This document shows positions 6,529 through 61,683 of a DNA stretch of 64,000 bases, in pieces. The position numbers were made by a program, and so were the translations under genes. The DNA is taken from contig JAAYEH010000479.1 in the NCBI GenBank assembly GCA_012728855.1, positions 1-64,000 on the forward strand, written 5' to 3'. The notes under the pieces were generated by a model. The model did no database searches, was not told the DNA's origin, and saw only the letters and a program-made list of their open reading frames with translations. The DNA comes from Rhodopirellula sp. (GTDB lineage: Bacteria > Planctomycetota > Planctomycetia > Pirellulales > Thermoguttaceae). The stretch's first letter is position 1. Each line of letters opens with the position of its first letter.

Positions 6529-7170
6529 ATGAAAACCATCGGCCTCAGCACCCTACTGATCTTACTCGGCTCGATGTGGGCGTATGGCCAGCGCGACTAT
6601 TTCGGGGGCGCCGTGATCGACATGCGCGCTTCGACGGCGGCCGAGGGCGCCGCCCGCGGCATGGCCGACGTGGCCCGTTCCGCCGGCCAGTACAACCTGA
6701 TGACGTCCAAAGCCGCGATCAACATGACCGAGGCCCAGCGCAACAACATCGAAAATCGCGAGCAGTGGACCGACACGTACTTCAAGATGCGGCAGGCCAA
6801 CAAGCAGTACCGCGCCACCGAACGCGCGCCGCGCGCGACGATGGAAGATCTCGTCCGCTTTGCCCAGGCCGGCAAGCCGCAACAACTCAGTCCCAGCGAG
6901 CTGGATATCGTGAGCGGCGCCGTTTCTTGGCCTACCGTGTTGAAAACGGAGCCGTTCCGCCAAGAGCGCGAGAAGCTCGATGCCTTGTTCGCCGCGCGTG
7001 CTCGGCAAGGAGTATTGAGTTTTGAGGAACAATCCGAGGCGGAAGCAGCCAAGGCGGCGATTCTCCGGCAGTTGCAGAGCCAAATCGACGCTCTCCCGCC
7101 CGCCCAATACATGCAATCCAAACGGTTCGTCGAAGGTCTCGTCTTTACTGCCAGACAGCCGACCGCGTAG
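6529..7170 (+). CDS. Small secreted protein of unknown function
   Basis: A 213-residue protein with a clear signal peptide (MKTIGLSTLLILLGSMWAYGQ) and a good AGGAG ribosome site nine bases before the ATG. The mature part is charged and mostly helical by composition (many Ala, Gln, Arg, Glu), with no Cys pairs, no membrane segment and no catalytic motif that I recognise. A segment near residues 90-105 (RATMEDLVRFAQAGKP) is followed by a hydrophobic patch and a long helix. The HEAT-repeat gene follows after 82 bp on the same strand, so the two may be co-transcribed. I do not recognise the family and assign only an envelope or periplasmic location. Confidence 0.75.
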   Translation: MKTIGLSTLLILLGSMWAYGQRDYFGGAVIDMRASTAAEGAARGMADVARSAGQYNLMTSKAAINMTEAQRNNIENREQWTDTYFKMRQANKQYRATERAPRATMEDLVRFAQAGKPQQLSPSELDIVSGAVSWPTVLKTEPFRQEREKLDALFAARARQGVLSFEEQSEAEAAKAAILRQLQSQIDALPPAQYMQSKRFVEGLVFTARQPTA

Positions 7171-7252
7171 CGACAGTCCCACTTAATCCAACCTCTGAAT
7201 CGCGCCGTCCACACCAATCGGGAACACCATTCATCCTGCGGGAGCAAGCAAT

Positions 7253-8911
7253 ATGACACCCTATCGGCACTGGCTTTTGATCCTGGCGACTGTCGCTGCA
7301 CTTTACGCGTCGGCCTCGCCGTTGTCCGCCGCGCCGCCCTGCGCCACGGAGTTGACCAAGCAACTGGATAGCTCCGATCTTTCGGCGCGGATCGAGGCGA
7401 TCGATCTGTTGGGTGAACGCGGAGAAGAGGCCGCCGCCGCGGTCCCGCGGTTGGCCGATCTACTCCAGGACCAATCGCCGCTGGTCCGTGCCCATGCCGC
7501 GCGAGCCCTCGGTCGCATCGGAGCGCCCGCCAAATCGGCGACGGAGCGATTGGTCGTTCTCGTCGGCGACGACGATGCTCATGTCCGCCGCGCTGCCATC
7601 CGAGCGCTGCGCGACATCCGGCCGGGCGCCGAGCGGGTTGTGCCGCTGTTCGTGAAACTGATGAAGGGGGCGGACGATTCGGTCCGGATTCACGCCATGG
7701 ATGCCGTGGCGGAGTCGGGAAACGAGGCCATGCCGTTTCTGGTCGAAGCGGTGAAGGACGATGCGGCGGCTTATTGGGCCTGTCTGGTGATCAGCGAGAT
7801 CGGCGCCGAGGCGGAAGAGGCCGTGCCGGCGCTTACCGAGCGTTTGAAGGATCGCAGGCCCGAGGTCCGGCGGGAAGCCATCCTCGCCCTGGCGGCGATC
7901 GGCAAGGCCGCCGCGCCGGCGGTTTCCCAACTGGTCGAGGCGCTGGATCATCCGGTTGATCGCATTCCCGCGACCTACGCCCTGGGCGCGATCGGCCAGG
8001 CCCCGCCCAGCGCCCAAATCGCGATTGAGAAGAACGCCGAAAGCGACGACGCGCTGCTGGCGGACGTGAGCCTCTTGACTCTGGCCCAGTTCCGTCCGGA
8101 CGACAAAGACTTGATGCGGAAAGCCGTTGAGAAACTTGTGCAAGACCTCAAGTCCGATGAAGCGCGGATTCGCGAGGCGGCGGCCCAGGCGTTGGTCGAA
8201 CTCGATCCCGATCCGGAAATCGCCCGGCCGATCTTTGCGAAGGCCATGGACACAGCCGGCCCCGATTCGCTCGACGCCATGATGGACGCCCTGGCCGGCC
8301 TGGGTGGGAAGGCGATACCGCGGCTGATCAAAGCATTGGGAATCGAGCAGACACGTGCCCGTGCGGCGGCCATCCTCGAGCGGATGGGACCGGCGGCCAA
8401 GGAGGCCGTGCCCGCGCTAATTGCCGCCCTGGGCGATAAGAATCCCGAAACCCGCAGCGAGGTGCTGCTGGCCTTGGGCGCGATCGGGCCGGAGGCGGCC
8501 CCGGCGGCCCCGGCGATCGCCGAATTGCTCACGGATGGGACGATGAAGGTCCGCTACGCCGCCTGTTACGCCCTCGGGCAGATCGGGCTGGCCGCGGCGA
8601 AATCGGCGCCGCAACTGGCATGTTGCCTCGGTGACGGCGATGAATTCCTCTGCATGGCCAGCGCTTGGGCGCTGGCGAAGATCGATTCCCAGTCGCCGGA
8701 AACCGCCGCCAAGGTAGCGCCCGTCCTCATCAAGGCGCTGGATACGCCCGACGCCATGACCCGCCTGCATGCCGCGGAGGCCCTGGGGCAACTCGGTGCC
8801 CCGGCCCGAGCCGCGATTGGCAAACTGGAGCAATTGGCCAAGGAAGATCCCAACGACGACGTGCGGGAAGTTGCCGCCGAATCGCTCAAGGCTATCGCGG
8901 CGCAGAAGTAG
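7253..8911 (+). CDS. Exported HEAT-repeat protein
   Basis: The 552-residue product has a signal peptide (hydrophobic residues 8-27, cleavage near SAA-PP) followed by about 14 HEAT/PBS-lyase-type repeats of 31-38 residues, seen as repeated AVPRL...DQSPLVRAHAARALGRIG and V-R-x-x-A-x-x-A-L-x-x-I-G motifs. A GGGAGC box precedes the ATG. HEAT arrays form curved helical solenoids that bind other proteins; no enzyme domain is present. Likely a periplasmic scaffold. Its stop codon is followed directly, in the same frame, by the tail of a glycosidase-like protein, which suggests that the junction arose by deletion. Confidence 0.85.
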   Translation: MTPYRHWLLILATVAALYASASPLSAAPPCATELTKQLDSSDLSARIEAIDLLGERGEEAAAAVPRLADLLQDQSPLVRAHAARALGRIGAPAKSATERLVVLVGDDDAHVRRAAIRALRDIRPGAERVVPLFVKLMKGADDSVRIHAMDAVAESGNEAMPFLVEAVKDDAAAYWACLVISEIGAEAEEAVPALTERLKDRRPEVRREAILALAAIGKAAAPAVSQLVEALDHPVDRIPATYALGAIGQAPPSAQIAIEKNAESDDALLADVSLLTLAQFRPDDKDLMRKAVEKLVQDLKSDEARIREAAAQALVELDPDPEIARPIFAKAMDTAGPDSLDAMMDALAGLGGKAIPRLIKALGIEQTRARAAAILERMGPAAKEAVPALIAALGDKNPETRSEVLLALGAIGPEAAPAAPAIAELLTDGTMKVRYAACYALGQIGLAAAKSAPQLACCLGDGDEFLCMASAWALAKIDSQSPETAAKVAPVLIKALDTPDAMTRLHAAEALGQLGAPARAAIGKLEQLAKEDPNDDVREVAAESLKAIAAQK

Positions 8912-41131: not shown

Positions 41132-42604
41132 CTACGATTCGCAATCGCGCCGCCTCTCGGCAAACAACTCGTTCAACCTCTCCAGGTCGACCGGTTTGAC
41201 GAGGTGGGCGTCGAAGCCGGCGTCGAGGGCTTGGCGCCGGTCGTCCGGCTGTCCGTATCCGGTCAGTGCCACCAGGAAAACACCGTCGTTCTGCGGATTT
41301 TTTCGGACGGCGCGGGCAACCTGGTAGCCGTCGAGTCCCGGCAGGCCGATGTCGACCAGGGCGACCTCGGGGCGTTGGAATTCGATCATCTCCAGTCCCT
41401 GCAAGCCGGATTCGGCTACGGCGACTTCGTGGCCGTCGAGTTCCAGTACGGTCTGGAGCATTTCCCGGGCGTTGGGGTTATCTTCGACGACGAGGATCCG
41501 CATCTCCGAAACGTTGGACTCGGGCGCGGAATGCCTTGCCGTGCGCCGCGCGGGAGTCGTCAGGGGCAGTCGGACCGTGAAGGTGCTGCCACGGCCGAGG
41601 CCCTTGCTCTCCGCCACGACCGTGCCGCCATGGAAGCCGACCAGGCTTCGCACCAGGGCCAAGCCAATCCCCATTCCGCCGTTGGACTTGGCCAGCGAAC
41701 TTCCCTCCTGGACGAACGGCTCGAAGATGAAGTCGAGCTTATCGGGGTCGATGCCGATGCCGTCATCTCGGATGCGGACGATCACTTCCGATCGATCGTG
41801 TTCGGCAATCAACCGGATGTGCCCGCCCGGTTCGGTGTACTTTGCGGCGTTGGTCAACAGATTGGCGAAGATCTGGTGGAGGCGCGTCGGATCCCCTTGT
41901 ACGTAGATCGGGCAGCGTGGAACGTCGAGATCGAATCCAAGTCGGTTTTCACCGATCAACGGCAGCACGACCTGCACCGCCTGATGGATTGTCTCGCGGA
42001 GGTCAATGGCTTCCTTGCGAAGTTCGATTTTGCCTTCGCAGATCCGGGAGACGTCGAGGAGGTCGTCCAAGAGGCGGGTCATCTGGCGGCTTTGCGTGTC
42101 GATGACGTCGCGGGCGCGGCTGAGTACCCTCTGGTCGTCCGCGGCGCGCTGCAAGATGCGGGACGCATTGACGATGGCCGCCAAGGGGGTGCGCAGTTCG
42201 TGGGAGAGAACGGCGAGAAACTGATCGCGTCGCCGCAGGGCTTTGCGGTTCTCCTCTTCGCGCCGCTTTCGCTGCGTGATGTCGCGAAGCGTGGCCAGAT
42301 GCGCGCGATTCCCCTGCCATTGGATTTCGACCGCCCGCATCTCCGCAACACGGCGCTCGCCATCGGGGGCGAGGTAGTCGATCTCCGTCGCCACGTCTTT
42401 GGCGATGGAGATTTCGAGTCGATTGCCCCGCAACTGCGCGCAGGTACGCCCCAACATGACCGCTGCCTGCTGATTCACGAAACGAATCGTCAAATCGTCG
42501 CCGACGACAAGGATCCCGTCCGCGCATTGTTCGACGATCGCCTGGAACCGGGCATCGCTCGCTTCAAGTCCGCGTTGCAGAACCTCTTTCGTCTGGACGC
42601 TCAT
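41132..42604 (-). CDS. Soluble PAS hybrid histidine kinase with receiver domain
   Basis: 490 residues with no membrane segment. A PAS domain covers ~15-110 (FQAIVEQCADGILVVGDD). The H-box LAVLSHELRTPLAAIVN gives phospho-acceptor His135. The ATPase has the N-box FANLLTNAAKYTEPGG, DDGIGID and GGMGIGLALVRSL. A C-terminal receiver (~367-485) has VVEDN, phospho-acceptor Asp418 (VALVDIGLPGLDGY) and VKPVD. A classic sensor with a built-in receiver. It lies 30 bases behind the CsrA-receiver gene on the same strand, so the two almost certainly work together: the kinase may phosphorylate the CsrA fusion. Confidence 0.93.
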   Translation of the reverse strand: MSVQTKEVLQRGLEASDARFQAIVEQCADGILVVGDDLTIRFVNQQAAVMLGRTCAQLRGNRLEISIAKDVATEIDYLAPDGERRVAEMRAVEIQWQGNRAHLATLRDITQRKRREEENRKALRRRDQFLAVLSHELRTPLAAIVNASRILQRAADDQRVLSRARDVIDTQSRQMTRLLDDLLDVSRICEGKIELRKEAIDLRETIHQAVQVVLPLIGENRLGFDLDVPRCPIYVQGDPTRLHQIFANLLTNAAKYTEPGGHIRLIAEHDRSEVIVRIRDDGIGIDPDKLDFIFEPFVQEGSSLAKSNGGMGIGLALVRSLVGFHGGTVVAESKGLGRGSTFTVRLPLTTPARRTARHSAPESNVSEMRILVVEDNPNAREMLQTVLELDGHEVAVAESGLQGLEMIEFQRPEVALVDIGLPGLDGYQVARAVRKNPQNDGVFLVALTGYGQPDDRRQALDAGFDAHLVKPVDLERLNELFAERRRDCES

Positions 42605-42634
42605 CGGATATCAGCCCAACCGATGTTGAACACT

Positions 42635-43414
42635 TTACCTGTCCGCCGAGCAGGTACATGTTTCCTGAAGTTCGCGCGAAATCTCGTGGACCAGGGATTC
42701 CGGGTTTACCGGCTTGGGGAACCATCGATCGATGCCCCGTGGACCGGTGGCCACCCCGAGTTCGCTCGGCGATGTACCGCTGATGGCAAACACCTTGAGG
42801 TCGGCAAGCCGCGGATTGTCGCGGATCGAAGCGATGGTAGCGCGGCCGTCCAGCCGCGGCATCATCATGTCCAACAGGACGACGTCCGGCCGCTCGTGCG
42901 TGGCGAGGTAATCCATCGCGGCGGAACCGTCGCCGGAGGTGGCCACGTCGAACCCGCTCACCCGCAGGAAGCCAGCCAGTAGTTCGCACTCATTGGCGTC
43001 GTCTTCCACAACGAGCGTGCGGCAAGCGCGGGGCGGCCCCGTCGCGGCGCTGGGCTCGGACTTGATCGCGGCGGCCTCGGCTTCCAGGGCTTCGAACTCA
43101 TGCAGGATCTTCTGGTACGTCTCTTCCGCCTGTTCGACCATGCCGCGATCCAGCAGCTTTCGGAACAGGTGCAAGGCGAGATTGGCCGCATGCAGCCGAT
43201 TGCGCACCGCATGCGACAGGCGGCGAGTGGGCGAGATCACGCCGGAACCCGGCAGCGCTTCGTCGTCGACGAGTTCTTCGCGCAGGATGCGAACGTCTTT
43301 CGGGGCTTTCACTCCCAAACGGGCCGTGTTTCCCTTGATCCGCAACACCTCGAGTGTTACGCCGAGATTGGGGAAAACGAGCTTCTCGCCTTCGCGGCGG
43401 GAAAGAACTAACAT
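42635..43414 (-). CDS. CsrA domain fused to helical segment and response-regulator receiver
   Basis: 259 residues from the ATG preceded by a perfect AAAGGAGG; a frame reading further upstream adds residues with no CsrA character. Residues 1-50 are a full CsrA RNA-binding domain: MLVLSRREGEK with Leu4, Arg6 and Arg7, then LGVKAPKDVRILREEL with the Arg equivalent to E. coli Arg44. A helical region (~62-118) has SHAVRNRLHAANLALHLF, like a DHp or H-box pair. Then a receiver domain with VVEDDANE, phospho-acceptor Asp182 (LLDMMMPRLDG), Ser in AISGTSP and Lys in FPKPVNP. A CsrA under direct phosphorelay control is unusual. Co-transcribed with the hybrid kinase. Confidence 0.93.
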   Translation of the reverse strand: MLVLSRREGEKLVFPNLGVTLEVLRIKGNTARLGVKAPKDVRILREELVDDEALPGSGVISPTRRLSHAVRNRLHAANLALHLFRKLLDRGMVEQAEETYQKILHEFEALEAEAAAIKSEPSAATGPPRACRTLVVEDDANECELLAGFLRVSGFDVATSGDGSAAMDYLATHERPDVVLLDMMMPRLDGRATIASIRDNPRLADLKVFAISGTSPSELGVATGPRGIDRWFPKPVNPESLVHEISRELQETCTCSADR

Positions 43415-43746: not shown

Positions 43747-45444
43747 CTATCCCGCGACTGAAGCGATGGTCCGCGACGACGACCGTTGCGACGAGGTGGG
43801 GGCGCAGAGCCGTTCGACGTCGCCCAAGTCGTTGAGCAGGCAGGGGTGCTTGTATTGTTCCATGTTGCCGCCCAACCCGGAGGTTCGCTGCAGGCGAAGA
43901 CGTTCCCAGGCGCCGTGCGGTATCTTGCGGAGTTGAAGTGGGCGGAGACGCCCGGACTCGAGTCGTTCGGCATACTCGCGGTTCATCAGCGACAGATGCC
44001 GATCGATGCTTCCGGGCAGAACCTCGTCCGCCACCGCACCTATACCCCCTTCGAGCAGTAGCTCGTAGCCCGCGGGATCACCGAAAACCGGAGCGACGCT
44101 GAATGTCTCCATAGGCAGACCGACTTCGAGGAAGCCGCTGCGGACCGCGGAGACGACCTGGAACTCGCTCAACTTCTCTCCGGTAATGTTAGAGTAGTGC
44201 GCCCCTTTGTTGAGAAATTCGAGGATCGGCACTGTGCCTTCAAAACCGACGCACCGGATCAGGTCGTGAATGTCGTAGCGATAGAACCCGCTGGAAGTTG
44301 TCAGCACGATAAAATAGTTCTGGTTCTCCTCCAGTTCGTGGGCTTCCAAAACCGTGGGATGCGGTTTTCCGTACTCGGCTTCGGGGATGAACTCGAAAAA
44401 GCTGTGAACATAGTCGAGCATCCCGGCGGGTGTGCCGTCCCGGAAAGGCAGCGTCATACGGCCCTCGCTGGCCGACAGACCGTGGTCGCGAATCGCCGTA
44501 TCGCCATAGTACTTCCGCAGGCACGGAAGATAGGCGCCGGCCGAACCGCCCGTCCAAATGGCGAGGACCGACAATGCCGGCCAGAAGTCGCGGGGAAAAA
44601 GTGCGCCGGTTCGCTCGACGATCCGCTCCAGTTCCCTCGCCCGCGCCGGGTCGCGACGTGCGATCCAGCGGCGAAGGCTGTCGCGGACTTCGCCGGGCAT
44701 ATCTACCCAGTCGGAGAGGGCGCCGTCGAAAAGGTCGCGGATCAGGGATTCCCGGCGACCGTCGGCCAATCGCGCCAATTCGACCAGGGTGCTTGGGTTG
44801 GCGGTGACGATCATCCCGACGCTGCGGTCGGCAAGGGACAGACGTAAGGCCGTGTAACGCTTAGCGATAGGATCGCAAATCTTCGTCAATGCGCGGGGTA
44901 GGAGAAAAATCGGCCGGCTGATCCAGGGTGCGGTCTCGGCCGCCAGCCCGCTGATGTTGCCGCAGGGAGTGCCCCCCTCGGTGGCGAACTGCCGCCAGTT
45001 ACTGCTGAACTGCAGCGTTCTCTTGCGCAGCAGATCCGTATGGTCCGCATAGGTCCGCAGACCCCACAGGTTCCACCCCTTGCGATATTCGTTGAAGAAT
45101 TCGCGGGTGACCGGGATGTACTTGGCGTCGCCGGTTGTTCCGGAGGTGAGGGCAAACATCAGCAAACGCGTACCGGGCCCGAATAACGCGCGCAGGTCGC
45201 CTCGCTTCAGCCGTTCGATGTAGGGCCGGTAGTCGTCGTACGAGGTGATCGGCACCTCTCTGCGAAAATCCTCCACCGTACGAATTCGCGCGAAATGGTG
45301 GCGGCGGCCGAAAACGCTCTGGGTGTGACGGCGAATTTTCTCCAAGAGAACCTGCCGCTGGATTTCACGCCCCCGATCAGCCGCCGACAGAAACTGCCGG
45401 ACCTGGAGGCCCCGCGCCAGAAGATAGCTCCTTTGAACGATCAT
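43747..45444 (-). CDS. GH3-family acyl-amide synthetase (adenylate-forming)
   Basis: About 565 residues, typical of bacterial GH3 proteins. Adenylate-forming motifs: LTSGTTGDAKYIPVT (phosphate-binding loop), then TSSGFYRYDIHDLIRCVGF near 390, which matches the plant GH3 block preceding the hinge. GH3 enzymes adenylate a carboxylic acid (jasmonate, auxin, fatty-acid-like) and join it to an amino acid or amine. I chose the ATG at 45444; a GTG at 45558 would add 38 residues that overlap a repeat-like sequence, so it is less likely. Last gene of the biosynthetic cluster; probable tailoring step that makes an amide. Confidence 0.85.
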   Translation of the reverse strand: MIVQRSYLLARGLQVRQFLSAADRGREIQRQVLLEKIRRHTQSVFGRRHHFARIRTVEDFRREVPITSYDDYRPYIERLKRGDLRALFGPGTRLLMFALTSGTTGDAKYIPVTREFFNEYRKGWNLWGLRTYADHTDLLRKRTLQFSSNWRQFATEGGTPCGNISGLAAETAPWISRPIFLLPRALTKICDPIAKRYTALRLSLADRSVGMIVTANPSTLVELARLADGRRESLIRDLFDGALSDWVDMPGEVRDSLRRWIARRDPARARELERIVERTGALFPRDFWPALSVLAIWTGGSAGAYLPCLRKYYGDTAIRDHGLSASEGRMTLPFRDGTPAGMLDYVHSFFEFIPEAEYGKPHPTVLEAHELEENQNYFIVLTTSSGFYRYDIHDLIRCVGFEGTVPILEFLNKGAHYSNITGEKLSEFQVVSAVRSGFLEVGLPMETFSVAPVFGDPAGYELLLEGGIGAVADEVLPGSIDRHLSLMNREYAERLESGRLRPLQLRKIPHGAWERLRLQRTSGLGGNMEQYKHPCLLNDLGDVERLCAPTSSQRSSSRTIASVAG

Positions 45445-45696
45445 CTCCCTGCGTACCCTTACTCCAACAATCGCCCTTGTACCGGTCAGGATATCATACG
45501 CTGGTCGAAAAGCCCAACTCGGATATTGGCGAAACGCATCAACGAGTGGGGCTGGCACCCTCGTTTTTCAGTGTTTCGCCACTACTGAATGCCAAGAGAC
45601 GCTCGGGTTGTGGCGGAGCCAACAGCACACACGGCGCCGTCCTGGCAACCCCCATGCCGGTGACGCTCGGCAGGGTGTCTGCCAGGATCGCCAAAG

Positions 45697-61335: not shown

Positions 61336-61683
61336 CTACTGCGGAATGCGGATGCCATTGGAACGAGAGATGTTCCTGGTCTTGCTTCTGTCTCGGTCGC
61401 AGCCGACTCGGCGGTTCTGGCTCCGCTCCGGCGACGAACCCGGATGTCTCCGATCGGAACTGCCGGTGGGCTTTGACGGCGCTTGCGCCTTCTTGCCCGG
61501 AATCGGTTCGACCGCGTCCTCGCGCTGTTCGATGGCAACGGCGATCTCACCGCGGAGAACCTGGACCGTCTCCGGTGCTTCGATCCCGATTTGCACGCTC
61601 CGCCCTCGGATCCGCAAGACGGTGATCGTGATGTTCGGCGCGATCTGAATCCGTTCGTCGATTTTCCGTGTCAAAACCAGCAT
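61336..61683 (-). CDS. csrA: CsrA carbon-storage regulator with long basic tail
   Basis: 115 residues from an ATG preceded by AAGGGAG. The first ~55 residues match CsrA: MLVLTRKIDERIQI with Leu4 and Arg6, GRSVQIGIEAPETVQVLRGEI with the Arg equivalent to Arg44. E. coli CsrA ends near residue 61; here a further ~60 residues follow, rich in Ser, Arg, Pro and Gly (PSKPTGSSDRRHPGSSPERSQNRR), likely disordered and nucleic-acid binding. CsrA binds GGA-containing mRNA leaders and blocks or changes translation. Second CsrA domain in this window beside the receiver fusion, so both could compete for the same RNAs. Confidence 0.88.
   Translation of the reverse strand: MLVLTRKIDERIQIAPNITITVLRIRGRSVQIGIEAPETVQVLRGEIAVAIEQREDAVEPIPGKKAQAPSKPTGSSDRRHPGSSPERSQNRRVGCDRDRSKTRNISRSNGIRIPQ

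Follow-up and report, generated by a model that had tools for sequence, protein, structure and literature searches.

As a rule the dimeric protein CsrA is regulated through sequestering RNAs or through the protein FliW. In the BarA/UvrY (GacS/GacA)-CsrB/C-CsrA cascade a hybrid kinase ends in the control of CsrA activity, but this control is indirect, via transcription of the sequestering sRNAs. Response regulators whose receiver is coupled to RNA-binding output, be it a CsrA or an ANTAR domain, are already listed in the literature, those with CsrA output as a class (Galperin 2006, cited in PMC2222644). The relays CckA-ChpT-CtrA (PMC3433190, PMC9981736) and Spo0F-Spo0B-Spo0A each combine a receiver donor that lacks an HPt of its own, a dimeric DHp-type phosphotransferase and a terminal receiver with DNA-binding output; phosphotransferases can belong to the HPt proteins or be pseudo-kinases like ChpT (PMC9981736, PMC3433190).

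The locus described here, within a window of 64,000 nucleotides (the whole stretch of DNA analysed), shares features with each of these systems. It encodes a receiver joined to CsrA and, next to it, a hybrid kinase. As far as the listing in PMC2222644 describes CsrA-output regulators, the fusion differs from them in that CsrA is N-terminal and a DHp-like hairpin with a near-invariant histidine precedes the receiver, and in that its gene is usually paired with one lineage of hybrid kinase, although the examples listed there may overlap with ours. The hairpin differs from Spo0B and ChpT in being joined to the terminal regulator and in lacking an ATPase-like domain, and the output is RNA binding. 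In contrast to the BarA/UvrY cascade, the phosphoryl group would here reach the CsrA polypeptide itself.

The CsrA-X-REC gene and its kinase neighbour

An earlier note on this DNA had described the CsrA fusion and the hybrid kinase as soluble proteins encoded 30 bases apart on one strand, and our gene calls agree, with the kinase gene 3' of the fusion gene (Table 1). Neither protein has a 19-residue stretch with the hydrophobicity of a membrane span (Kyte-Doolittle values peak at 0.87 and 1.49), and residues 135 and 418 of the kinase and 182 of the fusion are H, D and D as reported, with a Pfam receiver in both proteins. In a genome of the same genus (G001; matching record L049, a Pirellulales MAG) the fusion is 87% identical, and in this sister species the kinase lies 4 bases downstream of it, in the order of the window. 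Because L049 has the same pair, the pair is genuine despite an estimated contamination of 8.9% in the 11.3 Mb draft genome from which the window comes. A gene of the GH3 family (auxin-amido-synthetase-like; 43747-45558, minus strand) lies 332 bases upstream of the pair on the same strand, and an alpha/beta hydrolase gene lies downstream, convergent to it. A promoter scan gave no signal above chance.

Table 1 Features of the two-gene locus and the free CsrA gene in the window.
Feature	Position	Strand	Evidence
CsrA-X-REC fusion, 259 aa, ATG start	42635..43414	minus	Pfam CsrA and Response_reg; 68 full-length or near full-length homologues
CsrA RNA-binding domain, residues 1-50	43265..43414	minus	Pfam 4.6e-15; residue conservation
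X domain, residues 62-119, DHp-like helical hairpin with His68 and Asn72	43058..43231	minus	
Receiver domain of the fusion, residues 134-245, with D182, S212 and K234	42680..43015	minus	Pfam Response_reg 1.4e-17
Intergenic gap, 30 bases	42605..42634	minus	
PAS-HisKA-HATPase_c-REC hybrid histidine kinase, 490 aa	41132..42604	minus	Pfam
Free CsrA	61336..61683	minus	Pfam

When 84,980 species genomes were scanned with a DNA pattern taken from the receiver, so that distant members could be missed, 68 further CsrA-X-REC loci emerged (L049-L116; N-termini are incomplete in L111 and L113). Their record titles are nearly all planctomycete (Pirellulales, Gemmataceae, Gimesia, Thalassoglobus, Planctomicrobium and others), one (L057) reading only 'bacterium', and the next matches, from other phyla, covered the receiver only. 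Among sampled genomes the architecture was found in 51/296 of the order and, at a stricter threshold, 24/391 of the phylum, always within the same class. CsrA-X-REC is spread through the Planctomycetia, where post-transcriptional control has been little studied. Cultured planctomycetes with the unit include Lacipirellula limnantheis (L112) and Bythopirellula polymerisocia (L058).

The earlier note had proposed co-occurrence in related genomes as the check on its gene pair. CsrA-X-REC has a histidine kinase no more than 700 bp away in 44 of the 68 loci, and the core of the proposal, that the kinase and the CsrA-receiver protein form one signalling unit, survives this comparison. In the 43 paired loci that remain when L049 is left out, to which all further tallies of orientation, hybrid kinases and CheB-CheR refer, the adjacent kinase scored as hybrid in 40, and the arrangement is convergent in 22, tandem with the kinase first in 10, tandem with CsrA first in 9 and divergent in 2. 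What is conserved is therefore adjacency and not an operon: the operon that had been proposed stands within the genus, given the short gap in the sister species, and falls as a general description. The persistence of adjacency through four orientations argues for selection. By chance, a HisKA kinase would be expected among the two neighbours at about 1% of loci (49 HisKA matches in 11.3 Mb); a binomial probability calculated from this rate is not to be taken literally, because the loci are related.

That the two neighbours are functionally unrelated, their adjacency being inherited or accidental, would fit the roughly 20 of 68 loci that have no adjacent kinase, but seems to us very improbable, as adjacency survives inversions and changes of order, mostly with one kinase lineage, and another hybrid kinase takes the place in L053 and L065. 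Among the loci without a counted kinase, several (L055, L068 and L083) are cut by contig ends and the tail of a REC protein stands at the start of L080; in L074 and L100 a CheB-CheR protein adjoins CsrA-X-REC. Two CsrA-X-REC genes flank CheB-CheR proteins in L074 and in G104:C6, G208:C274, G231:C1 and G302:C1; in L074 the first copy lacks H68, and CheB-CheR is encoded separately from the kinase-REC part.

Lineage and domains of the kinase

The window kinase is a hybrid histidine kinase composed of PAS (residues ~18-110), HisKA (126-188), HATPase_c (237-349) and REC (370-479) domains according to Pfam, with PAS as the only sensory domain found, and its phospho-sites are kept in every partner kinase compared (H135 in 46/46, D418 in 45/45). 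No HPt follows the C-terminal receiver, nor is there room for one, and the partner kinases scanned with Pfam likewise end in a receiver, with no HPt match. The position four residues after the phospho-histidine is T139 in the window kinase and N in 45 partners.

The usual partner is a protein of ~1350 aa with the order CheB-CheR-PAS-PAS-HisKA-HATPase-REC, as seen in examples scanned with Pfam, and CheB and CheR are present on the partner in 31/43 loci. In a tree of kinase cores, one clade (support 100/99) holds the kinases of the window and of L049, almost every partner and the CheB-CheR kinase of the window genome itself, apart from 15 other kinases from that genome; the partners in L053 and L065 are a different hybrid kinase and fall outside it. 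The window kinase thus belongs, as a short version, to the clade of CheB-CheR hybrid kinases, from whose CheB-CheR-PAS members it differs in having neither CheB nor CheR. Its core shares 50% identity with the L079 core. The genome's own CheB-CheR hybrid kinase is apparently split over contig ends (G000:C206:32494-33815 and G000:C313:70497-73206), which suggests that both contigs adjoin.

A DHp-like hairpin between CsrA and the receiver

Both ends of the fusion protein are readily classified. Its CsrA domain (PF02599) scores 55.7 bits, above the cut-off of 27, and the RNA-binding residues R6 and R45 are kept in 67/69 and 69/69 homologues, which makes it a member of the CsrA domain family with predicted RNA binding. 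At 48.1 and 44.3 bits it lies below the equivalog cut-offs for free CsrA (73 and 70.1 bits; NCBIfam PRK01712/TIGR00202), so the fusion carries a CsrA domain but is no equivalog of free CsrA. At the other end, D138, D182, S/T212 and K234 are present in all 69 homologues, as expected of a response regulator.

Between these ends lies a region that had not been described in the earlier note, here called X, which the AlphaFold2 model of the fusion (mean pLDDT 87.5) shows as two helices (residues 62-89 and 93-119) forming a hairpin. Its most conserved residues among 69 sequences are H68 (65/69), L74 (64/69) and N72 (59/69), within an H-x-x-R-N-x-L box around the histidine. When single X sequences were searched against Pfam, that of the window gave no match, while HisKA was found in 14 of 54 members (best 2.9e-5) and SPOB_a in 2. 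A profile-profile comparison of X with the DHp domain of the partner kinases gave a probability of 97% (E 1.2e-10) with H68 aligned on the phospho-histidine, whereas none of 40 column-shuffled versions exceeded 7.6%. With its two-helix hairpin, its H-box histidine and this profile match, X has the features of a DHp/HisKA domain.

Structural comparison adds weak evidence, since helical hairpins are common. Alignment of the modelled X (VIA-align) reached a top Z of 8.9, and its best matches include the DHp hairpins of DesK (Z 8.8) and HK853 (Z 7.1) alongside many hairpins from unrelated proteins; Foldseek with X alone returned no match below E 1.7, and the list from a fold search with the full fusion model was filled by receiver matches. 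A search of PDB sequences with X found only TPR, designed or coiled helices, and some members have weak TPR matches in Pfam, as would be the case if X were a coiled-coil linker or a TPR-like helical pair whose histidine has no phosphate role. We regard this as improbable, because the top conserved residues, H68, L74 and N72, fit neither a heptad nor a TPR pattern, Pfam matches among members are most often to HisKA and the DHp profile match stands far above its shuffled controls.

Kinases keep an acidic residue directly after the phospho-histidine. In X the residue following H68 is variable (A in 20, E in 17 and D in 9 homologues) and no HATPase match exists in the fusion, the hairpin passing straight into the receiver in both Pfam and the AlphaFold2 model. 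X is for these reasons not a kinase, nor the fusion a histidine kinase, and the same two features argue against autophosphorylation of X. HPt motifs read HxxKG. The X motif reads HxxRN, and HPt (PF01627) is not among the 25 Pfam families listed for X members. X is, on its sequence, DHp-like and may work like a phosphotransferase of the Spo0B/ChpT type, although we do not file it as a member of that family, as a receiver and no ATPase-like C-terminal domain follows the hairpin.

A candidate phosphorelay ending on CsrA

The signal path of the earlier note ran from PAS through His135 and Asp418 to Asp182. All of these sites are intact, but the path is chemically incomplete, since the step from one aspartate to the other needs a histidine between them; to our knowledge, the receiver of a hybrid kinase does not pass phosphate to another receiver without such an intermediate. 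A candidate, His68, is supplied by the fusion itself, and in calling the pair self-contained the note was probably more right than it knew, if phosphotransfer takes place as we infer.

The cytosolic PAS hybrid kinase would autophosphorylate on His135 and pass the phosphoryl group to Asp418 in its own receiver, of the Rec-inter type. From there it would move to His68 of X, which would serve as a phosphotransferase that lacks a catalytic domain, comparable to a Spo0B or ChpT reduced to its hairpin. The last step would take it to Asp182 in the fusion's terminal receiver. X should dimerise as a four-helix bundle, and phosphorylation of the receiver would reposition or occlude the paired RNA-binding faces of CsrA, so that the changed dimer would alter translation or stability of target mRNAs. 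In this scheme we infer the direction of transfer, the geometry of the dimer, the effect on RNA binding, the targets and the signal. A four-step relay His135-Asp418-His68-Asp182 ending on an RNA-binding CsrA protein is the economical and, in our view, best reading of the four sites, and we judge it just on the probable side.

The receiver of the kinase carries an (S/T)-G-aromatic motif, the aromatic residue being present in 42/45 partners (Y 36, W 4, F 2); the receiver of the fusion lacks this motif. The (S/T)-G-Y form has been linked to Rec domains that hand phosphate on to DHp/HPt partners (PMC9981736). Against the relay stand T139 of the window kinase, the absence of H68 from 4/69 homologues and the loci that have no adjacent kinase. 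Loss of H68 may go with a missing kinase neighbour (p = 0.024), but this value ignores kinship and counts L074 and L100 as lacking a neighbour, although both have adjacent CheB-CheR proteins.

The main rival is direct two-component transfer from His135 to Asp182, in which the kinase receiver would be a regulatory side domain and X a DHp-derived dimeriser and phosphatase (H-x-x-x-N) that resets Asp182. N72 stands where HisKA kinases carry the phosphatase T/N residue, a dimerising hairpin would suit a dimeric CsrA, and in L105, where alanine replaces H68, the fusion adjoins a kinase without a receiver. We nevertheless consider direct transfer rather unlikely, as H68 is, alongside N72, the most conserved residue of X, and the aspartate of the kinase receiver is intact in all 45 partners, together with its Rec-inter-like motif. 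A further alternative is that a free HPt encoded elsewhere carries phosphate from the kinase receiver to Asp182, X being structural only. Most HPt matches of the window genome lie in long open frames with other domains, but some are in short open reading frames (122, 124 and 219 aa) that could do the job of His68 instead. However, no HPt gene was found alongside the pair, and the conservation of H68 across the class would be left unexplained, which makes a free HPt improbable too.

Should the four-step relay be correct, direct phosphorelay control of CsrA would link sensing to translation by a route of its own, and a hairpin alone would constitute a minimal phosphotransferase. The most novel form of this reading, which we consider slightly less likely than not, has a catalytic-domain-free DHp phosphotransferase inside an RNA-binding regulator, placed between CsrA and the receiver, such that one polypeptide would hold the second histidine and the final aspartate, and CheB-CheR-type kinases, in some lineages with a KaiB-KaiC module, would control translation without a transcription step. 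A literature search of limited range found no paper joining CsrA and a receiver in planctomycetes, nor one describing the DHp-like module, its histidine or the pairing with the CheB-CheR kinase lineage.

The free CsrA gene to which the earlier note had pointed is present in the window, but the role suggested for it, as a competitor or heterodimer partner of the fusion, is unsupported: the genome has a large set of 18 CsrA-domain matches, which give this one no special claim, and we rejected it as a dedicated competitor. A standalone CsrA gene elsewhere (G000:C48:176) lies just upstream of another kinase gene and a regulator gene.

Kai genes within related units are a lead that lies outside our claim for the window, in whose genome no full-length relative of the Kai-unit KaiC was found. 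In four loci (L084:931-6092, L085:6001-11001, L098:6001-10375 and L115:6001-10957) the genes for CsrA-X-REC, an unknown protein of ~160 aa, KaiB, KaiC and a PAS-kinase(-REC) follow one another on one strand, and the kinase belongs to the partner-kinase clade. The presence of KaiB and KaiC inside the unit makes a link from clock to translation testable. In L054 a KaiB gene (7160-7468; Pfam 4.2e-18) separates the CsrA fusion from a PAS hybrid kinase and touches the open reading frame of the kinase.
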